Shown here piece by piece: positions 1,230 through 50,054 of a DNA stretch of 64,000 nt. The stretch is from assembly GCA_947650365.1 (NCBI GenBank), contig OX393550.1, positions 66,829,744 through 66,893,743 of the forward strand, given 5' to 3'. The stretch's first letter is position 1; every line of letters starts with the position of its first letter. Position numbers and translations under genes: made by a program. This DNA is from Chamaelirium japonicum. Taxonomy: Eukaryota; Streptophyta; Magnoliopsida; Liliales; Melanthiaceae. The notes under the pieces are model-generated. The model saw only the letters and a list, made by a program, of their open reading frames with translations. It was not told the DNA's origin and ran no database searches.

Positions 1230-1354
1230 CCTACACCCAATGAATGGGTGCCACGTTCAATACAATAATAGAGGGCTACACGAGGGTGCAGACTTATAAG
1301 CCCAGCGGATCCAGCCAAACCCTCGAGAACACACGCACACACGGTGGGAGCGAG

Positions 1355-2887
1355 ATGGCTTCAACGACAGCGGCTAAGCCACACGCAGTGTGCGTCCCCT
1401 ATCCATCCCAAGGCCACATTACCCCGATGCTAAATGTGGCGAAGCTCCTCCACTCCCACGGCTTCCACATCACCTTCGTCAACACCGAGTTCAACCACAA
1501 CCGCCTCCTCAAGTCCGGAGGCCCCTCCGCCCTCGAGGCCCTCCACGACTTCGTGTTCGAGACCATCCCCGACGGCCTCCCCCCCTCCGACCACGGCGCC
1601 ACCCAGGACACCCACTCCCTCTGCCGCGCCGTCGCCACCAACCTCCTCGCTCCCTTCCGCCACCTACTCCAACGGCTCAACGGGCCCGCCTCCTCCTCCC
1701 CTCCTGCCACCTGCATCGTCGGCGACGGGGTCACGAGCTTCACCCTCGTCGCGGCCGAGGAGCTAGGCGTCCCCGTGGTCGTATTCTGGACCACGAGCGC
1801 CTGCGGTTTCATGGGCTACCTCTACTTCAAAGACCTCATCGATCGAGGCCTCGTGCCCCTCAAAGGCGAGCAAGCATTAACTAGCTTAGCTAGTCTCCTG
1901 CTCTCCTTCTCCTTCGCAACTAATTACCGTTGCTCTTGCACAGACGCGGCCGACCTTAGCAACGGATATCTGGACACCCCCGTCCACTCGGTTCTGGGGC
2001 TGAGGAACATGCGGATGAGGGACTTCCCGAGCTTCGTCCGGACGACGGACCCCGACGAGTTCATGCTCAACTTCATGTGCGGCGAGGCGCAGAGAGACCG
2101 CGGGGCGGCTGCGATCGTTCTGAACACCTTCGACGATCTGGAACGCCCCGTCCTCGACGCGATGCAGTCGATCCTCCCTCCCGTCTACACCATCGGCCCT
2201 CTTTCCTTACTCTACCGCCGCATGGCCGAGGGGCAGCTGACGTCCCTTGGCTCGAGCCTTTGGAAGGAGGAGACGAGCTGCTTGCGGTGGCTGGAAGGAA
2301 GGGAGCCACGGTCCGTGGTCTATGTCAATTTTGGGAGCATAACGGTGATGACAAGGGAGCAGCTGATGGAGTTCGCGTGGGGGCTGGCCAACAGCAGCCA
2401 CTACTTCCTATGGGTGACCAGGCCCGACCTTGTGATGGGCGATTCCGCAGCGCTCCCGCCGGAGTTCTTAACCGAGACGAAGGGGAGGGGGCTGCTGGCG
2501 AGGTGGTGCCCGCAGGAGGAGGTGCTGTCCCACCCGGCGGTCGGAGGGTTCTTGACGCACAACGGGTGGAACTCGACCATCGAGAGCATCACCGGCGGGG
2601 TGCCGATGATCTGCTGGCCCTTCTTTGCGGAGCAGCAGACCAACTGCCGGTACGCGTGCACCGAGTGGGGCATCGGGATGGAGATCGACGGTCGTGTGAG
2701 GAGGGAGGAGGTGGAGGGGCTGATCAGGGAGGTGATGGGCGGGCAGAAGGGGAAGGAGATGAGGAGGAGGGCGGGGGAGTGGAAGGAGGCTGCGGTTAGG
2801 GCAACGGAGCCGGGTGGGTCTTCTTTCCTAAATTTTGAGAGACTGGTGGAGGAGGTACTGTTGCGTTGCCCACAGAAGAGGGAATGA
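1355..2887 (+). CDS. UGT85A-type UDP-glycosyltransferase (gene 1)
   Basis: Family-1 glycosyltransferase that moves a sugar from a UDP-sugar to a small acceptor in the cytosol; UGT85 members act on cyanohydrins, terpenols and cytokinins, but the acceptor here is unknown. The ATG at 1355 is chosen because MASTTAAKPHAVCVPYPSQG matches the usual UGT85 N-terminus; the frame is open 37 codons further up without family similarity. Catalytic His is residue 21 (PSQGH) and the partner Asp is about residue 124 (IVGDG). The 44-residue PSPG sugar-donor box spans residues 358-401 of the spliced protein, from WCPQEE through HNGWNS to the final Gln. Exons are 1355-1865 and 1944-2887 (phase 1), giving 484 aa; without splicing the frame stays open and adds 26 aa. 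The gene is intact, about as long as family members, and is a tandem duplicate of the gene at 16329. Confidence 0.93.
   Translation: MASTTAAKPHAVCVPYPSQGHITPMLNVAKLLHSHGFHITFVNTEFNHNRLLKSGGPSALEALHDFVFETIPDGLPPSDHGATQDTHSLCRAVATNLLAPFRHLLQRLNGPASSSPPATCIVGDGVTSFTLVAAEELGVPVVVFWTTSACGFMGYLYFKDLIDRGLVPLKGEQALTSLASLLLSFSFATNYRCSCTDAADLSNGYLDTPVHSVLGLRNMRMRDFPSFVRTTDPDEFMLNFMCGEAQRDRGAAAIVLNTFDDLERPVLDAMQSILPPVYTIGPLSLLYRRMAEGQLTSLGSSLWKEETSCLRWLEGREPRSVVYVNFGSITVMTREQLMEFAWGLANSSHYFLWVTRPDLVMGDSAALPPEFLTETKGRGLLARWCPQEEVLSHPAVGGFLTHNGWNSTIESITGGVPMICWPFFAEQQTNCRYACTEWGIGMEIDGRVRREEVEGLIREVMGGQKGKEMRRRAGEWKEAAVRATEPGGSSFLNFERLVEEVLLRCPQKRE
1866..1943 (+). other. 78-bp GC-AG intron in UGT gene 1
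   Basis: Exon 1 ends CTCAAAG and is followed by GCGAGC instead of GT. The acceptor is TTGCACAG, preceded by a pyrimidine-rich run and a CTAAT branch-like word. Splicing here restores the family sequence PLKD-AADLSNGYL, exactly parallel to PLKD-MADLTNGYL of gene 2, whose donor is a normal GT at the same phase-1 site. The intron is 26 codons long with no in-frame stop, so retention would not break the protein. Donor positions other than +2 fit the U1 consensus well. Confidence 0.85.
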
Positions 2888-5326: not shown

Positions 5327-6676
5327 TTTTTGTATTACGTATCATTAAAATAAAGATGACGTTGTTTATTGATTTAATTAGAATACTATTTTGGTATATG
5401 TTAATCCATATATAATAAGGACCCTAGGGAACACAGTAGGACGTCATTGAGGTGCATGGTGGATCCATGCTTAAGAGACCCATTGTACCAGTCCTGTGTA
5501 GACCTATACTGAGCTCACAGCTTTGGTGATGCTGGTCGTTTCACTTGGAATAAGTTGTTGGCAAATAGAGGTATGTGGCGAAGTCTTCACCATGGGGACA
5601 TTGGATCTCTATTCACCTAACGAAGTACAATGATCGTGTTGAACAGGAACCAAGACGGTGCGCAGACCAGTCTATAAAAGCCTGGTGCATAAATCGTCTT
5701 ACTACTATAAATAATCTGTCATCAACCATGAGGGACCATGCATACTGACCCAACCGGCTGTGTGGTGCTTTGATATGCCAACATGTACGAACCTTTCATA
5801 GTCCAATACCACGGTACATTGGGTTACCTAGCTGGCGCTGGAGTGGCATGCAACCCCTATAGGTTATCCGATATTCAGAATTGGATGAGTGCGTTTTGAT
5901 GAGTCAATCTATCCACATGATTAATCCAGGCTTGGTGGTTGTTAATATGACTGACGACGTTCCATATGCTAAACATAGTACCAAAAAATGTGTGGTGTTA
6001 TAGATGATAAGTCATTAAATTCTAGTCAGATAATCGATCGGGTCCTGACAGTGCTCCCTACCGCCCGAGTCGAATCATGGCACCAGTAACATGATATACT
6101 AAAGATTATCAGAGTATGATAGAGAACAGGGTTACGAGACAGTAACATAAGTTTAGGATCACTAGAGTTCAACTTGCGTCGCACTCTGAGTGACTACACG
6201 GGTTAATCGGATTAGGGTTGATTAGCGAAACTTTCAGTGTGTCACAAGAATAGTTAATCAGGGATCCGATTGGAGCTACAGATCCTAAACCCTTAAAGTT
6301 TCATCATGTCGTTGCATATAGGAATTGTTCCCTGACTCAATTGGATACGTTAGATGCGAAGTGGCGCGATGGAGCGCAAGCCCGAAGCTTAAGAACCTAA
6401 TTCACATAGTTAAGGAACCATAGGTGTATTTTGGTCAATACTAAAATATGGCTCAGAACATATTGAATATAGATTTAAAATAAACGAAATAATTCCAGGA
6501 GCTCATAGGCGCTGACGGAACTCGATTCCGAGTAGTGCACCTCACTCTATCTCTCTTACTGTGCTCTCCCTATTTGAGAGTGTTTTCATCCAAGGCATCA
6601 CGAAAGATAGGAGAAGCCTTAATCGACCTCCCCCTTATCCTTATCTCTAAGGGGGTCAGGCCTAGCTTGCGTATGC
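5297..6676 (+). mobile_element. Degenerate LTR copy (family of the 28534-30664 solo LTR)
   Basis: This stretch matches the solo LTR at 28534-30664 in inverted orientation. Clear anchors are the start (ATGTTCTAAGC, then AATAAAGAT), the CGGTACATTGGGTTACC segment near 5812 and the CACTCTGAGTGACTACACGG segment near 6185. The copy is diverged and has no coding sequence. Its right part is cut by the gag-only retrotransposon at 6677 and appears to resume at 14358 with GGCCGACCC-rich sequence. I cannot place its far end. Confidence 0.7.
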
Positions 6677-7290
6677 TGTGGGGGGAAATTTCCGAGCCGC
6701 CTTGATCGGGAACCCCACCCCACAGCCTTGATTGAATGTTGATGGTTTGTAGAGTTAGAGAATTGGGAGAGTAGATAAAGAGAGTATAGAGTGATGACAC
6801 AAGGATTGGTGACGGAGTTCAGTCATACGACCTATGTCTCCGGGCGAGAGGTGCCACCTGATCTTCACTATAATTTGAGTAAATGAGGGTTGAGCGTTCT
6901 CTCGACAGGCCGAGAGAAGCTTCTTGCAATGTGTTTGCACGGAGCAATTAGAAGAGTTCAAGAGGAAGAATGGAGGGCTCTGGCTCTGGATCTGGAATCC
7001 TTCTTCCTCTGATCGAATGACCAACCCACTCCCTGGATGCCTTGGGGGTCCTTTTATAGCGTAGGCATGTGCCCGATATGGCAGTGATGACGTGGCGCTG
7101 ATGATGTGGTACTGGTTCTGGGCCTCCTTGCTAGGCCCTTATTGGGCCGTTGTTCGGGCCCAATAAGGGGGAGGGCTTAATCTACGAGCCCCGTAGAGTG
7201 GGCCCATGAACCCGGGCGGGCTTACCCACTTGGGCCGTTGCGCGGGCCCATGCCGCTCTGATCCGGTCCGGTATAATTTTTGCATCCACA
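6677..7290 (-). repeat. 3' LTR of gag-only element 1
   Basis: 614 bp, plus-strand ends TGTGGGGGGAAATTTC and TTGCATCCACA. A TATAAAA box on the minus strand lies at 7052-7058. It differs from the other LTR only at scattered single bases, which suggests a fairly young insertion. Confidence 0.95.
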
Positions 7291-7308
7291 GTTACCCCCT
7301 CCCAGTCG
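7291..7308 (-). promoter_or_regulatory. Polypurine tract of gag-only element 1
   Basis: Read on the minus strand, CTGGGAGGGGGTAAC directly abuts the 3' LTR. This is the usual place and composition for the plus-strand primer of an LTR retrotransposon. Confidence 0.8.
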
Positions 7309-7399
7309 GGTCAGGACCCTCTGGGTCGGCTGGGATTCCAAGGTGCAAACGCCTCAGGATTCTAGCATGGTTGACAAGGGTCGTCGGTGTCGCGGTTCG

Positions 7400-8270
7400 T
7401 ATTAGTAGAGTCTCCTTCTGCCGATGCCGCGATCCTTTTGGCGCGAGCCAAAAAGTCTCGGTTTTGCAAGTGGGCGTATCAGAAGAAGCAGTGTGTTTTC
7501 CGACCGAGAGGATACCGAGAGGATACCGAGACCCTTTTGCCTTTTCCCGACCGAGAGGATGCCGAGACTCCTTTGCCTTCTGCCGATACCGAGACCCTTT
7601 TGGTGCGAGCCAAAAAGCCTCGGTTTTGCGATGAGGCGTTCTCGAAAAATTAGTGTATTTTTCGACCGAGAGTATACCGAGAGGGTACCGAGAGGATACC
7701 GAGAGGGTACCGAGACCCTTTTGCCTTTTTCCGACCGAGAGGATGCCGAGACTCCTTTGCCTTCTGCCGATGCCGAGACCCTTTTGGTGCGAGCCAAAAA
7801 GTCTCGATTTTGCGAGGAGGCGTTCTCGAAAAATTAGTGTATTTTCCGACCGAGAGTATACCGAGAGGATACCGAGAGGGTACCGAGACCCTTTTGCCTT
7901 TTCCTGACCGAGAGGATGCCGAGACTCCTTTGCCTTCTGCCGACGCCGAGACCCTTTTGGTGCGAGCCAAAAAGTCTCGGTTTTGAGAGGAGGCGTTCTC
8001 GAAAAATTAGTGTATTTTCCGACCGAGAGTATACCGAGAGGATACCGCGACCCTTTTGCCTTTTCCCGACCGAGAGGATGCCGAGACTCCTTTGCCTTCT
8101 GCCAACGCCGAGACCCTTTTGGTGCGAGCCAAAAAGTCTCGGTTTTGCGAGGAGGCGTTCTCGAAAAATTAGTATATTTTCCAACCGAGAGTATACCGAG
8201 AGGGTACCGAGACCCTTTTTCCTTTTCCCGACCGAGAGTATACCGAGAGGGTACCGAGACCCTTTTCTTG
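7400..8270. repeat. Tandem array A (about 160-186 bp units)
   Basis: The phrase GCGAGCCAAAAAG followed by TCTCGG recurs near 7442, 7602, 7788, 7960 and 8123. Between copies runs CGACCGAGAGTATACCGAG with an inner 11-bp microrepeat of the type GGGTACCGAGA. Unit length varies because the number of inner microrepeats varies. Overlapping open frames on both strands are by-products of the repetition. Confidence 0.9.
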
Positions 8271-8840
8271 CTGTCCTGGTTTTGCACAGGAGATCCACGG
8301 TGTTTTTATTGTTGCAAGAGATATAGAAATCCAAATGATATCAAACTAGATTCAAAAGTTGTGTATCGGAGTTCTTTATATACAGTCCAAATTTCAGCCC
8401 AATCGGAGTTCGTGACCAAAAGTTATGGCCGTTGTACCGAAGCCTCTCTGAGCAGATCCGCTGTCCAGATTTTGCACTGAAGATCAACGATGTTTCTATT
8501 GCTGCAGGAGCTATAGAAGTTCAAATGACCTCAAACTAGATACAAAAGTTGTGGCTTGTAGTTCGCTATTTACAGTCCAAATTTCAGCCCAATCGGAGTT
8601 CATGGCCAAAAGTTATGGCCGTTGTACCGAAGCGTCTCTGAGCAGATCCGCTGTCCAGATTTTGCACTGAAGATCAACAATGTTTTTATTGTTGCAAGAG
8701 CTATAGAAGTTCAAATGTCCTCAAACTAGATGCAAAAGTTGCGGCTCGTAGTTCTCTATTTACAGTCCAAATTTCAGCAGAATCGGAGTTTATGACCCAA
8801 AGTTATGGCCGTTGTACCGGAGCTTCTCCGAGCAGATCCG
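8271..8840. repeat. Tandem array B (three units of about 190 bp)
   Basis: Units begin at about 8271, 8461 and 8651 with CTGTCCAGATTTTGCACTG or a variant, and share CAAACTAGATTCAAAAGTTG, ATTTCAGCCCAATCGGAG and AAAGTTATGGCCGTTGTACC. No coding potential is apparent. Confidence 0.9.
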
Positions 8841-9640
8841 TGCTAGGCTGTTGTAGACACCGAGACCCCCTCCCCTCTCGGTTTTTGACGAAACCGAGGG
8901 GTGGGCTGTTGTTGATGCCGAACACCCACCCTCTCGGTTTTCTGACGAAACCGAGAGGTGGACTATTGTTGATGCCGAACACCCCGACCCTCTTGGTTTT
9001 TTTGATGAAACCGAGAGGTGGACTGTTGTTGGTGCCGACACCCCCTCCCCTCTCGGTTTTTTGCAAAACCGAGAAGTAGGCTGCTGATGGTGTGTCATCA
9101 CCCCCTCCCCACTCGATTTTTTATGCGAAACCGAGGGGGGGCTGCTCGTTGATGCCGACACACACCTCTTCTCAGTTTTCTGACGAAACCGAGGGGTGTG
9201 CTGCTGATGGTGTGTCGTCACCCCCTCCCCACTCAGTTTTTGTACGAAACCGAGGGGGGGCCGCTTGTTGATGCCAACACACACCCCCTCTCGGTTTTCT
9301 GACGAAACCGAGGGGTGTGCTGATGGTGTGCCGTCACCCCCTCCCCACTCGATTTTTGTACAAAACCGAGGGGGGGTTGCTTGTTGATGCCGACACACAC
9401 CCCCTCTCGGTTTTCTGACGAAACCGAGGGGTGTGCTGATGGTGTGCCGTCACCCCCTCCCCACTCGGTTTTTGTACGAAACCGAGGGGGGGTTGCTTGT
9501 TGATGCCGACACACATCCCCTCTCGGTTTTCTGACGAAACCGAGGGGTGTGCTGCTGATGGTGTGCCGTCTCCCCTTCCCCACTCAGTTTTTGTGCAAAA
9601 CCGAGAGGGGGCTGCTTGTTGATGCCGACACCCCATTATT
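8841..9640. repeat. Tandem array C (about 60-bp units in 120-bp pairs, hairpin-bearing)
   Basis: A roughly 60-bp unit carries CTCGGTTTTCTGACGAAACC followed by GAGGGG, so each copy contains the inverted repeat CTCGGTTT / AAACCGAG around a short loop. In the second half alternating unit types (GTTGATGCCGACACAC and GCTGATGGTGTGCCGTC) form a higher-order repeat of about 117-120 bp. Confidence 0.9.
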
Positions 9641-10124
9641 GGGGCTGCTAGAAGAGGCCAAAAAGTGTCGGTATTGAAAATAGTGTGTTTTTCGAATTTC
9701 AGCCCCATTTGAAACTGACACTTTTTCGATAAAACGCTGGTGCGCGGGGATGTCGGCGAGGGACAATGCTATATTCGAGGGGATTTCTTAGAGATAATCT
9801 AGGATGACGCCGAATGATGGCCAGCCGGTCTTCACCCAATGTATTACCGCACCTGATTACTGTATTCACCAGGTACTACGGTCACGTGAGGGTGTTGACT
9901 TGGCTAGGATCAAGGAAGCACCATTTTATCCCGTGTTACCCACCGTCGACTGCACCAGTATGGAGACACGCACTGATAGAGTCAGACCAACCACCCCCTG
10001 ACCGGTTTGGAACCGTTAGTCATCGAAAAAAGGTGATGGCTAGTGACAATCTGATGCTTGGACCTGAGTGACAAGACTAAGCTTGGACTTTTGATTGAAT
10101 ACCAATACGTCGACGACGACGTCT
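9641..10124. other. Non-repetitive spacer inside gag-only element 1
   Basis: No repeat or gene is seen. It contains a short quasi-palindrome around CCAAAAAGTGTCGG and CTGACACTTTTTCG. Confidence 0.5.
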
Positions 10125-11015
10125 CAGACTTTGTCTTCGAATGCCAAGGGTTGGGCCTTGGGCTTGTAGAGTGCCAAGGCGTTGGTCGCCTCGAACTTTG
10201 TCTTCAAGTGCCAAGGGCTGGGCCTTGGGCTTGTAGAGTGCCGAGGCACTGGTCGCCTCGGACTTTGTCTTCGAGTGCCAAGGGCTAGGCCTTGGGCTTG
10301 TAGAGTGCCGAGGCATTGGTCACCTCGGACTTTGTCTTCGAGTGCCAAGGGCTGGGCCTTGGGCTTGTAGAGTGTCGAGGCATTGGTCGCCTCGGCCTAT
10401 GTCTTCGAGTACCAAGGGCAGGGCCTTGGGCTTATAGATTGCCGAGGCATTGGTCACCTCGGACTTTGTGTTCGAGTGCCAAGGGCTGGGCCTTGGGCTT
10501 GTAGAGTGCCGAGGCATTGGTCACCTCGGACTTTGTATTCGAGTGCCAAGGGCTGGGCCTTGGGCTTGTAGAGTGCCGAGGCATTGGTCACCTCGGACTT
10601 TGTCTTCGAGTGCCAAGGGCTGGGCCTTGGGCTTGTAGAGTGCCGAGGCATTGGTCACCTCGGACTTTGTCTTCGAGTGCCAAGGGCTGGGCCTTGGTCT
10701 TGTAGAGTGCCGAGGTATTGGTCACCTCGGACTTTGTCTTCGAATGCCAAGGGCTGGGCCTTGGGCTTGTAGAGTGCCGAGGCATTGGTCACCTCGGACT
10801 TTGTCTTCGAGTGCCAAGGGCTGGGCCTTGGGCTTGTAGAGTGCCGAGGCATTGGTCACCTCGGACTTTGTCTTCGAGTGCCAAGGGCTGGGCCTTGGGC
10901 TTGTAGAGTGCCGAGGCATTGGTCACCTCGGACAGTGCCAAGGGCTGGGCCTTGGGCTTGTAGAGTGCCGAGGCATTGGTTACCTCGGACTTTGTCTACG
11001 AGTGCCAAGGATGTC
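10125..11015. repeat. Tandem array D (67-bp units, about 13 copies)
   Basis: The 67-bp unit contains GAGTGCCAAGGGCTGGGCCT, then TGGGCTTGTAGAGTG and CCGAGGCATTGGTCACCTCG. Copies are closely similar and evenly spaced from about 10154 to 10890; the last step is shortened by about 14 bp. Each unit holds two inverted repeats: CCAAGG / CCTTGG and CCGAGG / CCTCGG. Because 67 is not a multiple of three, each copy shifts frame, giving a ladder of 62-65-codon spurious frames. Confidence 0.95.
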
Positions 11016-11094
11016 TCCTTGAACTTGGTGCATGTCAAAGCGGCGACGTATGCCTTGGACTTATTCTCATCACCTCGGATAAGTATAGTTGATA

Positions 11095-11770
11095 GTTTAG
11101 CTTGAATTGGATATTCAGGAGCATTTTTATCTGACTTTCGCCTTGAAAGGGCGTAGCCGAATTGCCTTCAAGCTTCCGACTTGAATGGGTGGAATCGAAG
11201 GTCTTTGGTTGACCTGGGTTGCCAGGAGCCTTTTATCGAACTTTAGCCTCGAGAGGGCGTAGCCGAATTGCCTTCGAGCTTCCGACTTGAATGGGCGGAA
11301 TCGAAGGTCTTTGATTGACCTGGGTTGCCAGGAGCCTTTTTATCGGACTTTTGCCTTGAAAGGGTGTAGTCGAATTGCCTTCGAGCTTCCGACTTGAATG
11401 AGCGGAATCGAAGGTCTTTGGTTGACCTGGGTTGCTAGGAGCCTTTTTATCGGACTTTAGCCTCGAGAGGGCGTAGCCGAATTACCTTCGAGCTTCCGAC
11501 TTGAATGGGCGGAATCGAAGGTCTTTGGTTGACCTGGGTTGCCAGGAGCCTTTTTATCGGACTTTAGCCTCGAGAGGGCGTAGCCGACTTACCTTCGAGC
11601 TTCCGACTTGAATGGGCGGAATCGAAGGTCTTTGGTTGACCTGGGTTACCAGGAGCCTTTTTATCAGACTTTAGTCTCGAGAGGGCGTAGCCGAATTGCC
11701 TTCAAGCTTCCGACTTGAATGGGCGGAATCGAAGGTCTTCGGTTGACCTGGGTTGCCAGGAACCTTTTTT
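11095..11770. repeat. Tandem array E (107-bp units, six copies)
   Basis: The phrase GGAATCGAAGGTCTTTGGTT recurs about every 107 bases (near 11191, 11297, 11404, 11511, 11618, 11725), followed by TGACCTGGGTTGCCAGGAGC and ending CTTCCGACTTGAATGGGCG. Copies differ by a few substitutions. Confidence 0.95.
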
Positions 11771-11945
11771 TTTATGCCTTAACATGGTGGAATCGAACTT
11801 CGAGAGATTTGATTTTGAGAAAAAAGAGATACTTTATTGATACAACAAAGTAGCGGTTACACTTTTTCAGAAGTTGCCCTGCGGACGTTATGATTATGCA
11901 TCCATGTATTATATTGACTTTTTTTCTCCACTGTTGCTGCCTCTT

Positions 11946-13598
11946 CTACTCTCGACCTGGTTCCTTATTAGCGAGGTAGCCATCGAGCCACCCTTTTTGG
12001 ATTAGGTCTTCGATGTGATGCTTTAGCTTCCGACATGTAGAGGTTGGGTGGCCATGGCTGCGATGAAACTCACAGTAGGCTGTCGTATCTCCTGCCTAGT
12101 CGGAATTTGGAGGGAGAGGTTGTGGCCACTTGCAAAAAGGCTCGTTCTGCAAGTAGGCGAATATGTCTTCAATGGAGGTGTTCAGCTCAGTGAACACCCT
12201 TTGCTCCCTTGGAGTTCGCCTCTTTTCTGTTGGAGGGGCTTTCGGATCTTCATTGTACCTTTTGGCCTGGGCCTTTTGGTCGGATGCAGCATGGGCAGAC
12301 TTCATGTAGCGTGCTTCATTCGAAGCTTCATCATCTTTCTTATGTCGGGAGTCACGAGACTCGCGAGGCTCGCGTAGTCTTCTGGCCTGCTGATTGTCTT
12401 CCACCTCTATCTCCCGCTGTACGCGCTTGAACATTGCCTCTAAGGTACTGGGAGGATACCGGATGAAGTCGGTGTAGACGTGGAGCTCTGGCCGGATAGC
12501 ATTCTGGAATGCCAGCATGATGGCCTCCTCATTATGCGACCGACTTGTGAGCTCAGAGTGCTCATTATGAAACCTCATCGTGAAGCTCCTTAGAGACTCA
12601 TCGGAGCCCATCTTCAGCCGGTAGAGTGTATCCAGCTTCTTTTCCGGCTTTAAGTTTAGCCGGTAATGGTCCATGAAGAGTTCAGCCAATTCTTTGAATG
12701 TGGTCACCGTACCAGTAGGCAGTGTGTAGTACCAGTCGAGGGCAGGTCCCTCGATGCTTCCCGCAAACATACGGCAAAGAACATGGTTCTCATACTCGTA
12801 GGGCGTCAGGGCCTGCTTGTAGGGTAGGATATGGAGAGCAGGGTCTCCCTGGATGGAGTTGAACTTTGGCAGGCTCGGTGTTCGCCAACCCATAGGAAAT
12901 GGTGTTGCAAGAACCTTGGGATGCAGTGGCCCCACCGAGGTGATTAGCTGCCTACGGTCTTGATGGCGGCGTCCCACGTCGACAATATGCCTTAGTCGGT
13001 TGAGCAGCTCACGGGCATCTGTTGCTTTCGTGTGCGAAGGGATAGAATGTCTAGTAGACCCAGTTGACTGAGGTAATCCTTCTTCGCGATAGCTGGGCGC
13101 ATTATTGACGTCGAGGCGATCCCACACCGTTTGCCTTGGTGCTTGTGTGGATACCTGACGCATCTCGATACGCGGCACATGTGGTTCTTCAAGATGATGA
13201 CTCACGGCTGGGCAAGTCCTTGGTTGGTCTTCATCAGTAGCTAGAGAGTTGTGGGCCACAACCCCCACTCTTTCAGCCGCCTTCTTTAGGGAATCCCTCT
13301 CTTGCTCGAGGGCCGCATTCTTCTTGAGGAGATTTAGTAGCTGAAAATCAGCAGTCGAGATCTCGTATGTAGCCTGAGGCTTGCTCCATTGAATAGTGTG
13401 TTCTTTGCCAGATCGACGCCTCGGGGATGACGGGTCTCGCTGATCACTGTGCCCTTCTGGATGGCTGCCTTGCGGCCCCAGCCGCTCCCGAACATTTCTT
13501 TGATTGGTTGCAACCGAGACTTCTTCTTCTTCTTCGATCAGCATATCGTTTGTTCGTTCAGCACCCGCCTTTGGTGGGTTGGTGCTAGCCTTCACCAT
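11946..13598 (-). CDS. gag: Gypsy-type Gag with an internal TAG codon
   Basis: Structural protein that would form the virus-like particle and bind element RNA. The ATG at 13598 is the first in this frame outside the LTR. The product has 500 codons to a TAG at 12096-12098, then the same frame runs 49 codons further to a TAG at 11946-11948. Upstream of the internal stop are a charged coiled-coil-like stretch (LNLLKKNAALEQERDSLKKA) and the retrotransposon gag fold with MFAGSIEGPALDWYYTLPTG. Past the stop lies a zinc-knuckle-like C-X2-H-X4-H-X4-C (CEFHRSHGHPTSTC) and a LKHHIEDLI helix as in plant Gypsy Gags. The internal stop is therefore either a disabling mutation or a readthrough point; no protease or polymerase follows. 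Confidence 0.88.
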
Positions 13599-13717
13599 CG
13601 AGCGTGTTGATGTCGGCGTGATAAAGGCGTTGATGTTGATTTGGATGAGGACTTGTGGCTCGTCACCGCAAGTTGAATAGGAGTCGGTAGAGGTGTGGGT
13701 AAGACCTCTAACAATAT

Positions 13718-13733
13718 CCCACAGACGGTGCCA
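13718..13733 (-). promoter_or_regulatory. Primer-binding-site-like sequence of gag-only element 1
   Basis: Five bases from the 5' LTR end the minus strand reads TGGCACCGTCTGTGGG, close to the TGGCGCCGTCTGTGGG motif common after plant Gypsy 5' LTRs. I cannot say which tRNA primes it. Confidence 0.7.
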
Positions 13734-13738
13734 AAGAT

Positions 13739-14352
13739 TGTGGGGGGAAATTTTCGAGCCGCCTTGATCGGGAACCCCGCCCCACAGCCTTGATTGAATG
13801 TTGATGGTTTGTAGAGTTAGAGAGTTGGGAGAGTAGATAGAGAGTGTATAGAGTGATGACATAAGGATTGGTGACGGAGTTCAGTCTTACGACCTACGTC
13901 TCCGGGCGAGAGGTGCCACCTGATCTTCACTATAATTTGAGTAAATGAGGGTTGAGTGTTCTCTCGACAGGCCGAGAGAAGCTTCTTGCAATGTGTTTGC
14001 ACGGAGCAATTAGAAGAGTTCAAGAGGAAGAATGGAGGGCTCTGGCTCTGGATCTGGAATCCTTCTTCCTCTGATCGAATGACCAACCCACTCCCTGGAT
14101 GCCTTGGGGGTCCTTTTATAGCGTAGGCATGTGCCCGATATGGCAGTGATGACGTGGCGCTGATGATGTGGTACTGGTTCTGGGCCTCCTTGCTGGGCCC
14201 TTATTGGGCCGTTGTTCGGGCCCAATAAGGGGGAGGGCTTGATCTACGAGCCCCGTAGAGTGGGCCCATGAACCCGGGCGGGCTTACCCACTTGGGCCGT
14301 TGCGCGGGCCCATGCCGCTCTGATCCGGTCCGATATAATTTTTGCACCCACA
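13739..14352 (-). repeat. 5' LTR of gag-only element 1
   Basis: 614 bp, ends TGTGGGGGGAAATTTTC and GCACCCACA on the plus strand; followed by the TSD TATGC at 14353-14357. A minus-strand TATA box (TATAAAA) is at 14114-14120. Confidence 0.95.
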
Positions 14353-14888
14353 TATGCAATTAAGGGGCCGACCCTATACGAGAAAAAGGAGGGGGAAAGG
14401 CCGGCCCTAACTCTCCCTTCTCTTGGAAAAAAACTATTGGAAGTAAATCCTTAGTAGAGGCCCACATCGGAAGCAAAGAGAAGATCCGAAGACCCAAGAC
14501 TTAATTGGTAGTTCCAACTACTTTGTCGACTAGAGGTTTGAACATCACTGTATTCACTTTGGATGAGGAGAGGGGAAGACCCAAGACTTAATTGGTAGAA
14601 TCCCCAGCATGATTCCCAAATCAGTAATCTCTGAGTAGAAGTTCTCAAAGGATCCGGAGAGAAAAACTTGCCTCTTATCTTTGTTAATCACCAACCCTGA
14701 CTTCTCCCCGAAAGTCCTGAGTAAGCTCAAGAATATCTTTGATCCTGAAAGACTGTGTTTGAGAAACACCATCAAGTCATCTGCAAAAATAAAATGGGAA
14801 ATGGGATGGTCGCCTCCTAACCCGAAGCTTTTCCAATCACCTCTGTAACATCCGCCCCAAACACACAAGATATTATCCGTTTTGCCCG

Positions 14889-16328: not shown

Positions 16329-17884
16329 ATGAGTTCAGTAGCAGCCGATAAGCCACATGCAGTGTGCGTCCCATACCCGTCCCAAGGCCATGTAACCCCC
16401 ATGCTAAAGCTAGCCAAGCTCCTCCACGCCCATGGCTTCCACATCACCTTCGTCAACACCGAGTTCAACCACAACCGCCTCCTCAGGTCGAGAGGCCCGT
16501 CCGCCGTCGAGGGCCTCGACGACTTCGTGTTCGAGACCATCCCCGACGGCCTCCCGCCCTCCGACCTCGGCGCCACCCAGGACATCCCCACCCTCTGCCA
16601 CGCCATCACCAATAACTTCCTGCCTCCCTTCCGCGACCTCCTCCAACGCCTCAATGCCCCCTCTTCCCCTCCAGTGACCTGCATCGTAAGCGACGGGGTC
16701 ATGAGCTTCACCCTCGACGCCGCAGACGAACTCGGCATCCCCGACGTCGTCTTCTGGACCACAAGCGCTTGTGGCTTCATGGCCTACCTCAACTATCGCC
16801 AATTCACCGACCGAGGCCTCGTGCCCCTCAAAGGTAATTCAGCAAGCACCTTATAGACCGTTGGAGCTCCTTTCTCCATTGCCCATCCTCGTTTTCGAAA
16901 TCGTTCTGCTTTGGCCTGTAAGCAGATATGGCCGATCTCACCAACGGATACCTTAACACCCCCATCGATTGGGTCCCTGGGCTGAAGAACATGCGGCTGA
17001 GGGATTTTCCGACCTTCATCGTCCGGACGATGGACCCGAAGGACATCATGCTTAACTTCATGGGCAGCGAGGCGCAGAGAGATCGCCGGGCGACTGCGAT
17101 CATCTTGAACACCTTCGATGATCTCGAGCGCCCGGTCCTGGACGCGATGGCCTCCCTGCTCCCTCCTGTCTACACACTGGGTCCTCTGTCCCTGCTCTCC
17201 CGAAATCTACCTGAAAGCCCGCTGTCGCCCCTCCGATCGAGCCTTTGGAAAGAAGAGACGGGTTGCTTCGAGTGGCTGGAAGGAAGGGAACCCAGCTCGG
17301 TGCTGTACCTTAATTTCGGGAGCATAACGGTGATGACCAACGAGCAGCTGGTAGAGTTCGCGTGGGGGCTGGCTAACAGCAGCCATGACTTCCTGTGGGT
17401 GACCAGGCCCGACCTTGTGATGGGTGGTTCCGCTGTGCTTCCACCGGAGTTCTTAGCTGAGACCAAGGAGAGGGGGCTGCTGGCGAGGTGGTGCCCGCAG
17501 GAGGAGGTGCTGTCCCACCCGGCGATCGGAGGGTTCTTGACGCACAACGGCTGGAACTCGACGATCGAGAGCATCTCAGGCGGGGTGCCGATGCTGTGCT
17601 GGCCGTTCTTCGCCGAGCAGCAAACCAACTGCAGGTACGCATGCACCGAGTGGGGCAACGGGATAGAGGTCGACAGCCATGTGAGGAGGGAGGAGGTGGA
17701 GGGGCTGATCAGGGAGCTGATGGGAGGGGAGAAGGGGAAGGAGATGAGGAGGAGGGCGGTGGAGTGGAAGGAGGCTGCAGTTAGGGCAACGGCGCCAGGT
17801 GGGTCGTCTTTCCTAAATTTTGAAAGAGTGGTGACGGAGGTGATGCGTTGCCCAGCACCTAAAGAAGAGAGAATGACCGTCTGA
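16329..17884 (+). CDS. UGT85A-type UDP-glycosyltransferase (gene 2)
   Basis: Paralogue of the gene at 1355, with the same two-exon design: exons 16329-16833 and 16926-17884, phase 1, 487 aa. The ATG at 16329 follows a GA microsatellite and gives MSSVAADKPHAVCVPYPSQG. Catalytic His lies in PSQGH (about residue 19) and the partner Asp in CIVSDGVMSF. The PSPG donor-sugar box covers residues 357-400 (WCPQEE to the terminal Gln, with HNGWNS and CWPFFAEQ). The intron has a normal GT donor and an AAGCAG acceptor. Differences from gene 1 cluster around MADLTNGYLNTPIDWVPG, in loops and at the C-terminus (PAPKEERMTV). The gene appears intact. Acceptor specificity cannot be read from sequence. Confidence 0.94.
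16834..16925 (+). other. 92-bp GT-AG intron with tandem NAGNAG acceptor
   Basis: The donor is AAG/GTAATT. The acceptor region reads CTGTAAGCAG, so two AGs three bases apart are available (ending 16922 and 16925). Use of the distal CAG gives PLKD-MADLTNGYL as in the family; use of the proximal AAG would add one codon. Confidence 0.9.
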
Positions 17885-19299
17885 TATCCGCTCTTCAGTC
17901 CGTCTGATGTCATCACTGACAACTTCAGCTGCTTACGTGTCCAATAATGGTCGGCTGTGGGGCATATGTCCCCAAGCTTCTGTCCACATATCCATCAAAA
18001 TTTAACTTTTGCAAACAATATGGATTCTATGCCAACACAATACCAGAAAGAATCAACAATTAAATCAAACACAAAAGAGAAGTTGACAAGCAAACAACGG
18101 AAAGAGACTCAGAGACTTAGGTGATTCGGCCTTTGGCCAATATCCACCGGAGGCAGCACAGAGAAATCGATCCACAATCAAGACCCTCAAGCAAAGTCCC
18201 TGGCGACGGCTCTCCAAAACTCTCTCAAGGGTCTCTCGCCAAAATTCAACATCTAGAAACCCTAGGCCTCTCCATTTATATAGTAGGAAGAGACATACAA
18301 CTCTCCAAAAGAGTCCCAACTCCGTCCTTTACCAAATCAGAAACAGACCAAAATGTCAGAAATCATCATGCGTGCGATGGGGCATGAAAAAATTTCACAC
18401 ATCGGATGAATGTAGCAGGGACGAGGACATTAACCGATAAAACTAGGATTGATAAGGTTAGAAATGAGGAAGGGAATCTGGGAGTTTCTTCGCCACATAA
18501 TTGCATATCAGTATGGGGATAATTGCTCATATATACCCAAAACGAAAAAAACTGACCCGTATAAACTCAAAACCCTACCATAATCCGTCAATTAAATCTC
18601 TCAATTCGATCTCTCACTCTTTTGTCTCCCCTCCTTCACCAAGGTCGTCTTCCGTCCGAGAATTCTAGGCTTTGCTACTTCCGGTCACATCCCATACTGC
18701 ACACATTACTTCCCTCAACTCCCCTTTCTTGACTCTCGATCTCTCACTCAGTGGCTCTCCCTTCCTCACTGAGGCCTTATGCCGTCTAGGCCAACTGAGA
18801 ACTCGAGGGATGTTGGAATTCTGAAATACAACTTTGAAAATAAATCTACTGAAAGCATGATAGTATTTAACTAAAACACTTCCATTATTTTCTTTCTCGT
18901 ATAATGTTTTTCATCAAACAAAAACACTTCCATTACTTCAGTTTTCTTAATATGGGCAATGAGGAATGTTGCAGTGATCTTTCCTCTGAGCCATCATGAA
19001 AACCCCGGAATCAAAGATGGTGATGATGACCTTAGGGCCACAACACAACTTAGACCTCTCAACCCACATGCCGGCCACTTCCTTAATTCTTTTTTATTAA
19101 GTTACCTCAATCCTTTAATTATTGCAAGCTATTGCAAATATGTAAGACACACGTTTCAAACACCTTTTATCTTTTTTTTAATCTTGGCAAAGAGGAACAA
19201 TTGTGTCATCTTACTCTTTAGTGATTCATGTCATACATAATTATGAAAAATATTTAAAAACTAAGTAGAAAACAAAAGAAAGTAGGCAAGAAAACTTAC

Positions 19300-24930: not shown

Positions 24931-26712
24931 TCACTCTTGCAGGTAGAAATCATCCGGACCAAATAATGTGTGAAGACAAGGATGATCGCATATGCATGAA
25001 TTCAATCTACTACAGAGGTCATGTACCTCCTCCATGCTAGGGTAATCCATTCCCTCTCCTGCTCTGAATTTGTTTACCACACCACCAATTTCAATCCAAC
25101 TATAACCAGGATCTTTCCTTATTCCCCAAGCGCCCATCATTTTTCTGACCGCATTGGCATCATCCCACCTTTTATTTGCCGTGAAGATGTTGGCCAAAGC
25201 AATGTAGGATCCTGAGCAATTTGGCTCCAGCTCAAACAGCTTCCTTGCAGCAACTTCTCCTATCTCAGCCTCCCCCCAGACCCTGCAAGCACCCAGTAGA
25301 GCCCCCCAGACAGAAGCTCTGAATTCACAGTTACATCGGTAGATAAACTCATAAGCCACGCGAACCATTCCGGCGCGCCCCAAAAGATCCACCATACAAC
25401 AGTAATGCTCATCCCTAACTGGAATCTCATAAACCTCGCTCATCAATTTAAACAATCTCCAACCTTCATCAACTAATCCTGAGTGGCTGCAAGCCGAGAG
25501 GAGGCATGTGAAAGTAATATGATCCGGAGGAATCTGAGCCAATTCCATTGCATGGAAGACCTGAAGCGCTTCATTGGTGCACCCGTGCTTCCCATAGCCA
25601 CAGATAAGTGAATTCCATGCAACAATACTCCTCTTGTCGTTTATTCTATCAAAGGCAGCACGGGCAGCTGTCAAATTCCCACATTTCGCATACATGACCA
25701 CAACGATCCCTTGAACAACTCCATCAGAACTAAAGCCTCTCTGGATGACATGGGCATGAAATTGCTTTGAAAGACCCATGAATCCAGAATTAGCTACCGC
25801 ATGAAGCAATCCTACAATAGTAGACTGATTTGGCACCAATCCTACCAAGCCCATTTCCTTATATACAGAGATGAGGCCCTCTCTATTCCCAATTCTACCG
25901 TACCCTGATATCAAGCTATTATAGCAGACCACATCTTTATGCTTAATCCTATCAAAAACCAAGTGGGCAGCACCCCAAATCCCATTTCTAGCATAGAAGT
26001 CCACCAGTGAGCTTCCGACAAAGGCATCCGAAGCCCAGCCGCTCTTCATGATGTGGGCGTGGAGTTGTTCCCCTTGTTTCAGTGTAACACAACGCAGCAC
26101 CACAGTGAAGGTGTGGCCATTTGGCGTGACGCTGCCCGACAGCATTTCCTGCAACAAACCCACCAGCTCTCCCTCGAAGCCATCTGCATCAGCGTAGGCC
26201 ATCAGCATGATGGTCCAGGCGACCACGTCTCTCTTGAGCATTCTGTCGAACACCTTCCGGGCTAACAAGACAAACCCACACTTAGCATAGAAACCCATGA
26301 GGGCGCTCTCGGAGCAGCAGGCAGCCGCCTCACTTCCGGAGTTGCGAACCATGAATCCGTGCACCTCCTGCCCGGATCGGACGGCCCCCAGCGAGGCGCA
26401 GCAACCCAGCACGGCAGCGAGGGCGGGTTCGCTGGGATCGTGGTGGTGGTCGACTGCCATCTCGCGGAATAGGGCTAGGGCCTCGTGTGGCCGGGCGTCG
26501 CGTGAGCAGCGCTGGATACGGGAGTACCAGTCGGAGGAACCTCGATCGGGCAGTTGGCCGATAATGGGTCCGGTGTTGGAGCTGGAATGGAAGAAGTAGG
26601 AGGCGGCGGTGCCTCGCGAGAACCAGGAGACGCCATCGCCAGCAGTGGAAGGAGGGGTGGGTTTGGGGGGTTGGGGAACGGTGGTCGGAGCACCGGAGTG
26701 AATCAATATCAT
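24931..26712 (-). CDS. PLS-class pentatricopeptide repeat protein, E subgroup
   Basis: Single-exon gene, 593 aa. PPR proteins of this class bind organellar RNA and mostly serve C-to-U editing. Residues 1-55 are rich in Ser, Thr, Pro and small residues, consistent with an organelle-targeting peptide though not proof of one. PPR motifs run from about 60 to 460 (for example VVAWTIMLMAYADA, VVCYNSLISGYGRIGN, IVAWNSLICGYGKHG, HITFTCLLSACSHSGLVDEG). An E1-type domain follows at about 468-535 (VWGALLGACRVWGE, ELEPNCSGSYIALANIF) and an E2-type segment at about 536-570 (GYSWIEIGGVVNKF). No DYW deaminase domain follows, so an editing role would need a partner. The ATG at 26712 is the first in frame. 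The gene appears intact. Confidence 0.93.
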   Translation of the reverse strand: MILIHSGAPTTVPQPPKPTPPSTAGDGVSWFSRGTAASYFFHSSSNTGPIIGQLPDRGSSDWYSRIQRCSRDARPHEALALFREMAVDHHHDPSEPALAAVLGCCASLGAVRSGQEVHGFMVRNSGSEAAACCSESALMGFYAKCGFVLLARKVFDRMLKRDVVAWTIMLMAYADADGFEGELVGLLQEMLSGSVTPNGHTFTVVLRCVTLKQGEQLHAHIMKSGWASDAFVGSSLVDFYARNGIWGAAHLVFDRIKHKDVVCYNSLISGYGRIGNREGLISVYKEMGLVGLVPNQSTIVGLLHAVANSGFMGLSKQFHAHVIQRGFSSDGVVQGIVVVMYAKCGNLTAARAAFDRINDKRSIVAWNSLICGYGKHGCTNEALQVFHAMELAQIPPDHITFTCLLSACSHSGLVDEGWRLFKLMSEVYEIPVRDEHYCCMVDLLGRAGMVRVAYEFIYRCNCEFRASVWGALLGACRVWGEAEIGEVAARKLFELEPNCSGSYIALANIFTANKRWDDANAVRKMMGAWGIRKDPGYSWIEIGGVVNKFRAGEGMDYPSMEEVHDLCSRLNSCICDHPCLHTLFGPDDFYLQE

Positions 26713-27119
26713 TATTCGCTAGCTTTACAACCATCCGATCCGATACACTGATCAGAAGTGTCATTAAAAAAAAAAAATGCTATTGGGCCGGAAGGTTTTC
26801 CCCATTTTGCCGGCTGATTGACATGGCAGCGTGCAACTGGTGGCTGAAACCACTACCGACATTTAAGTCTTTTACATCATCAGTTGCACACTACCACGTC
26901 GATTGGGCTGAGCAGAATCGAAAAACCTTCGATCGGTTGAAAGGTTCGCTCATTCCCAACCTGACCACACACACCTCAATCCGTTTTGCTTGTCGAACCA
27001 GCCGAGGAAAAAATCTCGTTGGTGAGGTCGCTCGACCTGTAAGACAAAGAAAACATGAACGGCTGGCTCCGTGAGGAGCGCATATCCTCCGACGCTCAAG
27101 TCAATCAAGGTTCGAAAGA
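26713..27119. other. Upstream region of the PPR gene
   Basis: Contains an A-tract at 26766-26777 and no recognised gene or repeat. The PPR promoter presumably lies here; no clear TATA box was identified. Confidence 0.4.
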
Positions 27120-46990: not shown

Positions 46991-47547
46991 TTGCTGCTTT
47001 TCCTCACAGAAGAAATAAGGGTGGAGCTATCGTTGATGTTGCTCGACGTATTATCAGTGGGGCTCAAACCAGACAAAGTGTTTGGAGAGTGGATGGTTTG
47101 GACAAAGTATGAATGTGTGATGGTGTGATGAGAGAAGCGATATCTTTATATAAAAAAAATTCCAACGAATAGATGTCTATCCTTTGGTGGTGGTAATGCA
47201 TGCCACCTCGCATGTCATGCCCAATGGATACAAATCTATCAGTTTGGCTCTTGAAATACGAGCCACCTCTCATATTGTGCCCAATAGATAGAAATTTATA
47301 AGTTTGTCTCTTGAAATGTGCGTGTAGACACACGAATTTCGTCGGACCCGAACCCGACTTACGTGTGCCGACGCGGATGCAAACCCGACGCGCGGACTCG
47401 ACTCGCGCGCGCCGACGCGGATGCAAACCCAACATGCGGACCCGACTCGTGCGCACCGATGCGGACCCGGACCCGACTCGCACCTAGCAAAGAGGAGCGG
47501 ACCCCATTGTGGGCACCGAAATTAGCCCACGAATTGGACCCGACCCG

Positions 47548-47830
47548 CATGCGAAACCTGGCCCACACACAATGGCCCGCATGCGAAACCTGGCCCACAC
47601 ACAACGGCCCGCATGCGAAACCCGGCCCACACACAACGGCCCGCATGCGAAATTAGGCCCGCGCACAACGGCCCGCATGCGAAATTAGGCCCGTGCACAA
47701 CGGCCCACATGCGCAACTCGGCCCACACACAACGGCCCACATGCGAAATGCGAACCTCGGCCCATACACAACGGCCCGCATGCGGAATTGGGCCCGCACA
47801 CCAATGGCCCGCATGCACACTTGGCCCGCG
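47548..47830. repeat. 30-bp minisatellite in U3 (5' LTR)
   Basis: Roughly nine copies of a unit of the type CACACAACGGCCCGCATGCG followed by AAACCTGGCC, with length variants. Each copy holds the palindrome GCATGC or a variant. The same array is at 57516-57800 in the 3' LTR. Confidence 0.9.
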
Positions 47831-48337
47831 TGCAAACTCAATCCGCGCACCATGGCCCAACTCAAAGCAAACGGGTCCCACCGGACCCGTGACTCGAACA
47901 CAAAGAGGGGGGCCCACCGGCCCCCCTTCTAGAAAACCGTGCCCCCTCCCCATGGGGAGGTGGGGCCGGCCATAAAGAAAAAGAAAACAAAAAAGGAAAA
48001 AAAAAAAAGAAAAGAAAAGAAAAGAAGAAAAAAATCAAAACCGTCTTGATGCGGGGGGAGGTGGCGTGGATGTCTACACAACCGTAGATCCGCGACGATC
48101 CCTCGATCCAACGGACAAGATGACGTTGTGTCGCCATCTGATCCAAAAGTGCAACAAAAATAACAACTCGATCTTTAAAGATCGAGTCACATCTAGCCCA
48201 TAACCACTCCAACTAAAAAGGAGGAAATCGGGTTTGTTTCCCCAAATAAGGGAACGATATCTCGATGGTTATGAGGGGAGATATTGGAGGAAACAAAAAG
48301 ATTTCAGCAATATCTCCCCCAACCGCCCCCCTTTGCC

Positions 48338-48345
48338 TATAAATA
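48338..48345 (+). promoter_or_regulatory. LTR TATA box (inner element, 5' LTR)
   Basis: TATAAATA in TTGCCTATAAATAGAAGG. The equivalents are at 58316-58323 in the 3' LTR and 60446-60453 in the outer element's LTR, in the same local context. Confidence 0.85.
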
Positions 48346-48720
48346 GAAGGGGTCGGGGAAGGCATCAAGGGACAGAAAAGCTGAAGACGAAAGGGCTCTG
48401 CAAGAGAAGCTCCAACGCTTGAAGACCGGAGGCTTCACGAGGCATGGCAAGCACGTCCTACGGGAATCCTTGGCCCTTCAAGTCCTCAACAACGTGAAGA
48501 CCTTGCACTCGAAGATCAAAGCTTCGACTCCTTGCACGAAGAAGAAAGCTCGGAGAAGAAGACCCGGAGTTGTCGTCATCCCGACTCCTCCAACGATCTT
48601 CATCAGCTCCGAAGACGCCATAAGCAAAGGCCGGAGAAGAAGATCGAAGCCGACAACACCCGTCATCTTCAACAAAGGCGTCGACTCCTCGCACGAAGAA
48701 GAAAGCTTGGAGAAGAAGGC

Positions 48721-49200
48721 CTGAAGCCGGTGCTACCCCTGCCGTCTTCGTCAACAAAAGCCGACGCTACAACCGTCGTGCGGAGATCGGTGCTACCCCC
48801 ACCGTCTTCACCAACAAAGCCGACGCTACAACCGTCGTGCGAAGATCGGTGCTACCCCCGCCATCTTCATCAACAAAAGCCAACGCTACAACCGTCGTGC
48901 GAAGATCGGTGCTACCCCCGCCATCTTTATCAACAAAAGCCGACGCTACAACCGTCGTGCGAAGATCGGTGCTACCCCCGCCATCTTCATCAACAAAAGC
49001 CGACGCTACAACCGTCGTGCGAAGATCGGTGCTACCCCCGCCATCTTCATCAACAAAAGCCGACGCTACAACCGTCGTGCGGAGATCGGTGCTACCCCCG
49101 CCATCTTCATCAACAAAAGCCGACGCTACAACCGTCGTGCGGAGATCGGTGCTACCCCCGCCGTCTTCATCAACAAAAGCCGACGCTACAACCGTCGCAT
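48721..49200. repeat. 60-bp minisatellite in the transcribed LTR (5' LTR)
   Basis: Eight units of GATCGGTGCTACCCCCGCCA, TCTTCATCAACAAAAGCC, GACGCTACAACCGTCGTGCG type; the second unit lacks one A. Since 60 is divisible by three, several frames stay open through the array. The 3' LTR carries the same eight-unit array at about 58699-59178. Confidence 0.95.
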
Positions 49201-49947
49201 AGAGATCGGTGTTACACCCACCATCTCCACAAGAAGCCTTCAACTCCGATCAAACCAAATACGCCCGGAGAAGAAGCCAGCCGATGTCACAACCGTCGAG
49301 GAAGCCGGAAGAATAAAGAAGCCCTGAAGAAGTAGCCATCGTCGTTCGAGAAGAAGATCGAGTCAAAGCTAAAGTCAAAGCCGACGCAAGAAGCCAAAGC
49401 AAACGCCCCGGTAAAGCCCGCGCTAAAGCAACGCATGTGCCAAAGCCAAGCAACTACGACGGTCACGAGCAAAGCACCGCACGTTCTAGCCGATACGACG
49501 CGAAGTCCGAAAGAACTAAAGCATCGCAAGCCTCTACCCGCCTACGTTCAAGCGCAAGCGCCAAAGCAAAGCAAACGCCAGAGCCACGCCAAAGCTACGC
49601 CAAAGCCGAAAGCTAAAGCCAAAGCTGACGCCAAAAACACGATCGACGCCGCGAACCGACGATCAAGGACGCTGAGGTCAAGCAAGGATCGAGGAAGACA
49701 CGAAGACCGAGGAACGAAGCCCAAGGCCTCCCTAGCCGAGAAAGTGCGAAGCACGGACGGGACAAAATCAACGGCAGAAACTCCTTAGCCTCTCAAAAAC
49801 CCTCACCCTGTAAAGACCTCTGTCCTGGGCAACCCCTTCAGAGCTCTCGCACGAATACCACGTGGAGACGCGGATCAAAGGGACCCTCCAGAGGATCTCT
49901 CCCACAATCTCCTGATCAAAGAAAATTTGTAATCTCGTGTGATCCGC

Positions 49948-49953
49948 AATAAA
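49948..49953 (+). terminator. LTR polyadenylation signal
   Basis: AATAAA in GATCCGCAATAAAGACGACC, 29 bases before the LTR end. It is repeated at 59926-59931 in the 3' LTR and 62282-62287 in the outer LTR. Confidence 0.8.
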
Positions 49954-49988
49954 GACGACCCGTATCTTTTTCCACGACCACAGATTTC

Positions 49989-50006
49989 TGGCACGCCCGG
50001 TGGGAC
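49989..50006 (+). promoter_or_regulatory. Primer-binding-like site of inner element
   Basis: TGGCACGCCCGGTGGGAC begins 6 bases after the 5' LTR (spacer GATTTC). The outer element has the same spacing and a near-identical site. The priming tRNA is not identified here. Confidence 0.75.
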
Positions 50007-50054
50007 CTCCTCTCCTTTCATCCGTACGTTTGAAGAAGTTGCTTCAAGTTCGCC

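Follow-up and report, generated by a model that had tools for sequence, protein, structure and literature searches.

A gag-only LTR retrotransposon family with five tandem arrays, very probably derived from a Retand-like element, in Chamaelirium japonicum

A 64,000-nucleotide stretch of the Chamaelirium japonicum genome (contig OX393550.1, positions 66,829,744 to 66,893,743; hereafter the window) contains, at 6677-14352 on the minus strand, a complete long terminal repeat (LTR) element, with an LTR pair, a target-site duplication (TSD), a gag, five tandem arrays and no pol. This locus raises the question of where an element without pol comes from, and whether its arrays are a source of genomic satellites, as a first-pass annotation of the sequence had proposed. 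Our results point, with high probability, to a gag-only family that is mobilised in trans and descends from a Retand-like retrotransposon of the Ty3/gypsy group. We make no formal assignment to Retand, as the element has no reverse transcriptase (RT) and the TRP28 frame is lost.

A complete element and its siblings

The features of the element are as follows (window coordinates; the sense of the element is the minus strand).

6672..6676, left TSD, TATGC
6677..7290, minus, 3' LTR, 614 bp
7291..7303, minus, polypurine tract GGGAGGGGGTAAC, adjoining the 3' LTR
7414..8266, minus, 162-184-bp array, about 5 copies (TRF)
8270..8840, minus, 190-bp array, 3.0 copies (TRF)
8865..9631, minus, 58/116-bp array, 6.5 copies of 116 bp, units with a short inverted repeat (TRF)
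9770..9930, minus, remnant with 86% identity to the edge of the TRP28-type antisense frame in the relative L043
10123..11010, minus, 67-bp array, 13.4 copies (TRF)
11116..11769, minus, 107-bp array, 6.1 copies (TRF)
11871..11894, pol-deletion scar (homology break relative to the relative L041)
11945..12092, minus, C-terminal part of gag beyond the stop, cut off in this copy, zinc knuckle at about 12030-12074
12096..13598, minus, gag from its likely first Met (read from the frame) to the stop, PF03732 Retrotrans_gag
13717..13733, minus, putative primer-binding site TGGCACCGTCTGTGGGA, 5 nt inside of the 5' LTR
13739..14352, minus, 5' LTR, 614 bp
14353..14357, right TSD, TATGC

The two LTRs, which end in TG...CA, show 13 mismatches over 614 sites. 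As gag lies on the minus strand, the 5' LTR is the one at 13739-14352 and the arrays are genuinely 3' of gag. The gag frame is open from 13880 to 12096 and matches PF03732 (Pfam, E 1.1e-7); a stop directly ahead of the zinc knuckle interrupts it. Nine other open frames of the element contain no retroelement domain in Pfam, with only weak sub-cut-off matches to unrelated families, and tblastn at E 0.001 finds in the element no match to the RT/RNase H and integrase frames of pol-bearing relatives. The matched LTRs, TATGC duplication, single gag and missing pol noticed in the first-pass annotation are thus borne out.

The arrays, defined by TRF and a repeat search, fill together about 3.7 of the 4.8 kb between gag and the 3' LTR. 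All five had been announced beforehand, and only the unit then called 60/120 is better named 58/116 bp. They are not due to chance, since their TRF scores (890-1524) far exceed the cut-off of 50 and since they recur in sibling copies.

Siblings were sought in the host assembly (1.52 Gb, 3253 contigs, apparently 12 of them long). The best 40 of 3805 candidates scored in an LTR search consist of the window pair, 8 further pairs and 22 singles; fetching all 8 pairs, together with the sequence on either side of 6 singles, yields 13 full-length copies, while L017/L018 is an LTR without internal region beside it. The first 100 of the 152 exact LTR-word matches listed include 36 LTR pairs, five of which, taken for their odd or equal spacing, add the full-length copies L035/L036, L037 and L038 and the short ones L039 and L040. 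The full-length set therefore amounts to 17, window copy included. Two expectations raised by the spacing are not confirmed. L035/L036, whose LTRs are 11.8 kb apart, could have been a pol-bearing sibling; it is actually a gag-only copy whose extra length comes from a longer insert and from a nested LTR belonging to another family. Likewise, four LTR pairs spaced 7538-7540 bp could have been one young group; the two that were fetched (L037 and L038) differ in content, so that the spacing is coincidental. In L037, a related LTR is nested in inverted orientation inside the 162-184-bp array.

At E 0.001, where three positive controls do match, RT/RNase H and integrase find no match in any of the 17 full-length copies or in the short L039 and L040. 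With gag as sole domain throughout, the element is thus a gag-only, TR-GAG-type non-autonomous one, as first supposed, and the pol-bearing intact siblings that would have spoken against this were not found among the 17. Matching TSDs are present in 13 of 14 copies (the flank of L023 left out), and a putative primer-binding site of the same kind as in the window in 14/14, as well as in the L033 element described below. The 67-, 107- and 58/116-bp arrays are found in 17/17 full-length copies, in the same order, and so is an array of the 162-184-bp type, which is weak in L015, L021 and L038. The 190-bp array is found in 12/17; it is absent from L009, L015, L021, L038 and L035/L036, and reduced to a single unit in L013. 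The arrays are therefore family-wide rather than a quirk of one copy.

The Kimura two-parameter distance between the LTRs of the window copy is 0.0216, within a range of 0.008-0.039 across 14 copies. At the rice substitution rate of 1.3e-8 per site and year, which may not be that of the host, the window copy would date back about 0.8 million years.

Pol-bearing relatives and a common scar

A search with the gag of L040 (best 40 scored of 3782 candidates) gives 40 places, 24 of which have an RT word of the relatives at most 6 kb downstream. Two of the relatives were compared with the window element: L041/L043 (C2:27.83 Mb), with an LTR 86%, a 5' leader 94% and a gag 81% identical, and L042 (C4:11.05 Mb), with values of 90%, 93% and 82%. 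Their pol is recognised in Pfam (RVT_1 1.4e-30 and RT_RNaseH_2 3e-22 in L042, rve 1.9e-14 in L041). In L041/L043, LTR, leader and gag are followed by RT/RNase H/integrase up to 7614 and by sequence corresponding to the far side of the scar. Next come the 107-bp array, a frame in antisense that matches TRP28 weakly, a repeat of 158 bp and an array of the 162-184-bp type, before a polypurine region and the LTR. Its 107-bp array, directly after integrase, is 81-83% identical to that of the window, and its polypurine region 89%; no match to the 67-, 58/116- and 190-bp arrays is found after its integrase. The autonomous relative whose search had been recommended was thus matched by a pol-bearing element sharing the LTR, the leader with its primer site and the polypurine region.

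The antisense frame of L043 has 374 aa and scores 17.1 bits for PF04195, below the cut-off of 26.2. A TRP28 search (137 matches among the best 150 scored of 5978 candidates) led to a further element, L033/L034 (C2:91.59 Mb), which passes this cut-off (L029, 34.9 bits). It has the same primer-site type, polypurine tract (GGAGGGGGTAAC) and LTR tips as the window element, and its gag is 68% identical over 515 bp. L033/L034 is itself a Retand-type element. It contains arrays of 118 bp (12.4 copies) and 154 bp whose units are in part palindromic, and its LTRs hold a 43-bp array.

Comparison with L041 reveals where pol has been. Homology to the end of its gag stops at window 11894 and homology to its post-integrase stretch starts at 11871; between these points L041 has about 4.8 kb of pol, about 0.8 kb of which is absent from L042, so that about 4-5 kb is missing. 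The scar-spanning stretch aligns through in 17/17 full-length copies. A separate check of the scar covered 15/17, as the searched piece of L009 ended before it and that of L010 missed it. Since the scar sequence is common to 17/17 copies, pol was lost once, before the family spread; gag distances within the family reach 0.13. The alternative, in which every gag-only copy is a separately deleted pol-bearing element, can draw on the fact that deletion derivatives do occur: L039 spans about 3.7 kb, and L040, which has a gag of the pol-bearing type and no arrays, about 3.6 kb. It is, however, contradicted by the same scar and the same array order in all 17 copies, which make independent decay extremely unlikely.

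Most of the antisense TRP28-type region is also lost from the element, to a different extent among copies: the remnant is 161 bp long (86%) in the window copy and 427 bp (83%) in L035/L036. As for L040, its LTRs are 92% like those of the window, its gag is 81% identical to the window's, and it looks recombinant. In L042:1-958, one element's 3' end leads into an LTR from which a second element's 5' end continues: tandem elements with one LTR in common.

Directly after gag, at window 11770-11894, an AATAAA lies in a T-rich context. An exact 30-mer holding it is kept in 11/14 copies, and a similar stretch follows integrase in L041, near 7625-7705. This AATAAA is possibly an RNA end that would leave the arrays out of the gag message.

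A single loss of pol in a Retand-like ancestor, followed by trans-mobilisation, would work as follows. The element would make Gag, and its RNA would be packaged and reverse-transcribed with the enzymes of full-length relatives. Copies differ by whole repeat units; such units would be gained and lost when reverse transcriptase slips or switches template, and the repeats would spread via retrotransposition and not as satellites. Regarding Gag, the differences to the relatives are mostly silent: pairwise dN/dS (nonsynonymous over synonymous rates) of 16 copies against L040, L041 and L042 is 0.13-0.23, and 0.12 for fixed differences. The changes put on the gag-only branch are S19:N2 (synonymous:nonsynonymous), in a comparison whose polarity was taken from a distant outgroup and in which the majority of changes could not be assigned. 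Within 14 copies, mean dN over mean dS is 0.52, and fixed differences between two post-scar lineages (S13:N9) depart from singletons (S130:N241) with p 0.038.

Several points weigh against this scenario. The longest frame covers the whole gag in 0/14 copies, and variants present in at least 3 copies give S30:N40 (p 0.22), so that the evidence for selection on gag after the loss of pol is mixed and suggestive only. L041 is decayed, with broken gag and pol frames and a 341-bp internal duplication, and L042 was read into integrase only, so that no intact helper is found among the relatives read. The LTRs of these relatives are just 86-90% identical to the window's, a closer helper was not found, and a single pol-bearing copy of the group (L041/L043) was read through to its 3' end.

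The 3' region: inheritance, RNA folding and satellites

Over 14 copies, the number of units varies from 4 to 21 for the 67-bp array and from 5 to 8 for the 107-bp array. The nearest neighbour of a unit lies within its own element at a frequency of 0.06 against 0.08 by chance for the 67-bp units, and of 0.01 against 0.06 for the 107-bp units. Because units resemble others in the same copy no more than chance predicts, the arrays appear to have been inherited rather than amplified locally.

The place of the 190-bp array is the most variable. In L015, L021, L038 and L035/L036, it is occupied by 1.7-2.7 kb of other DNA, partly common to these copies and partly matching the pol-bearing element, whose 158-bp repeat is included in L021, L038 and L035/L036. 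A Pfam scan of the L015 and L035 inserts detects pieces of host genes:

L015:7515-8324, L015:8547-8780 and L035:1794-2279, host-gene fragments (OPT transporter, terpene synthase) in element copies

The OPT transporter fragment of L015 matches PF03169 (E 9.9e-51). The terpene synthase fragments score below the cut-off of 37.6 bits, slightly in L035 (E 4.6e-9, 36.7 bits) and further in L015 (E 8.4e-6, 26.0 bits). The 3' region would behave as a tolerant slot where repeats and captured host-gene pieces swap.

Could the arrays instead be functional RNA structures, such as hairpins repeated for Gag binding or packaging? On the sense strand, 116 bases taken from the 58-bp array fold with z -3.55, and of the 164 hairpins located 3' of position 4600 in 14 copies, 131 have an 8-bp stem with full pairing. 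The other sense folds are nevertheless weak (z -1.93 for the 67-bp, -1.48 for the 162-184-bp, -0.74 for the 107-bp and 0.10 for the 190-bp array), and the opposite strand, which is not the RNA, folds equally well or better (-4.45 for 67 bp, -3.72 for 58 bp). Changes in both arms with full pairing occur in 2/164 hairpins, both via G-U, so that there is no real covariation; moreover, the arrays differ greatly in size between copies, and 5/17 copies lack one of them. A structural function is therefore highly improbable. We give hardly more credit to a related idea, in which the element's own Gag would have kept the pol-less lineage going and the hairpin-bearing arrays would be multivalent sites for Gag that favour the element's own RNA, the family outnumbering its helper.

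Abundance was estimated by genome-wide counts of exact words, in which old copies are undercounted and ratios are rough: 152 for the LTR, 154 for gag and 38 for the RT of relatives, against 4208 for the 67-bp unit, 3157 for the 107-bp, 789 for the 58/116-bp, 219 for the 162-184-bp and 70 for the 190-bp unit. Extrapolation from the listed stretch gives about 1000-1060 loci with the 67-bp unit and 1330-1470 with the 107-bp unit. Such large numbers of 67- and 107-bp units, together with the seeding of satellites documented for Ogre elements in Lathyrus (PMC7004042), would be in line with the array units also forming long stand-alone arrays. The clusters at the places listed are, on the contrary, only element-sized. 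Among the 100 matches listed for each unit, the longest cluster is 1.58 kb for 67 bp (of 4208 matches), 1.44 kb for 107 bp (of 3157), 1.67 kb for 58/116 bp (of 789) and 0.55 kb for 162-184 bp (of 219); the complete list for the 190-bp unit comprises 70 matches at 51 loci, with at most 2 per locus. In the listed stretch, 24/24 of the 67-bp clusters lie within 4 kb of a 107-bp array, and genome totals do not exceed the density of that stretch (4208 seen against 4400 expected for 67 bp, 3157 against 3491 for 107 bp). Among the places listed, none of the five units is thus seen to form a stand-alone satellite, with the reservation that diverged units escape exact words and that satellites may be collapsed in an assembly. 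The role of satellite source proposed in the first-pass annotation is not supported by these searches and appears very unlikely. The 190-bp unit occurs within 15 kb of 0/38 exact RT places (0/70 matches).

The element is inserted between two UDP-glycosyltransferase frames (PF00201) on the plus strand, at window 1244-2884 and 16922-17881; identity between 1368-2896 and 16342-17885 is about 82%, and the insertion thus lies between gene paralogues. Elsewhere in the window, another LTR-type element (47507-59960) has 2.49-kb repeats 98% alike, each with a 60-bp array of 8.3 copies. It also contains a frame of 1146 aa bearing a gag domain, and related sequence recurs from about 60.5 kb to the window end. 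A frame for a PPR protein with an E motif lies at 24934-26718 on the minus strand.

Comparison with known systems

The literature drawn on comprises PMC11963269, PMC3305785, PMC7004042, PMC8704663, PMC6022998, PMC10552921 and PMC4608283. The present family is not described in the titles and abstract openings of the literature searched, and no repeat library was searched by sequence. That it is unreported is thus not shown, and to call the set of arrays extreme, as was done at first, is overstated, given the five minisatellite families of PMC3305785 and the pol-less Ogre with 3' arrays of PMC7004042. We conclude that this is a new family of a known kind of element, whose origin is well documented by a single common scar and by pol-bearing relatives, and whose copies differ in the extent of antisense-frame loss and in the arrays and host-gene pieces gained.

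TR-GAG elements are reportedly the subject of Chaparro et al. 2015. They are defined by two LTRs and GAG, or GAG plus protease, as the only domain (PMC6022998), and evidence of their transposition exists (PMC8704663). The present element resembles them by its two LTRs, gag as sole domain (no match to RT, RNase H or integrase in 17/17 full-length copies) and a pol-bearing relative in the same genome; it differs by about 3.7 kb of tandem arrays and, in some siblings, by host-gene fragments. A large LTR element without coding domain (LARD) would not carry its gag, and satellite DNA would form long contiguous arrays, where only element-sized clusters are seen among the places listed.

In Retand, the region from pol to the 3' LTR measures 2.9-6.6 kb and often contains arrays (PMC11963269). 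Such a long region is present in the relative L041/L043 (7615 to 13803, about 6.2 kb, with arrays), the element itself having no pol. The element shares with Retand arrays 3' of the coding part and the remnant of an antisense TRP28-type frame (PMC11963269), but it has lost pol and most of TRP28, keeping in the window copy a 161-bp remnant in place of the antisense frame between pol and the 3' LTR. It also has five arrays, against at most three in Table 1 of PMC11963269, and units of up to about 190 bp, against 8-100 bp there.

Soybean Gmr9/GmOgre likewise carries, 3' of its coding region, five different families of minisatellites, which vary between copies and are 90% associated with it (PMC3305785); however, it exceeds 21 kb, contains gag-pol, and its repeats are interleaved instead of forming five separate arrays (PMC3305785). 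The pol-less Ogre of Lathyrus sativus (FabTR-54/57) likewise has gag near the arrays and pol deleted, but its repeats also form long satellites (PMC7004042), none being seen here among the places listed. The present family offers a way to test if Gag remains under selection after the loss of pol, and why only some of the arrays carried by elements turn into satellites.

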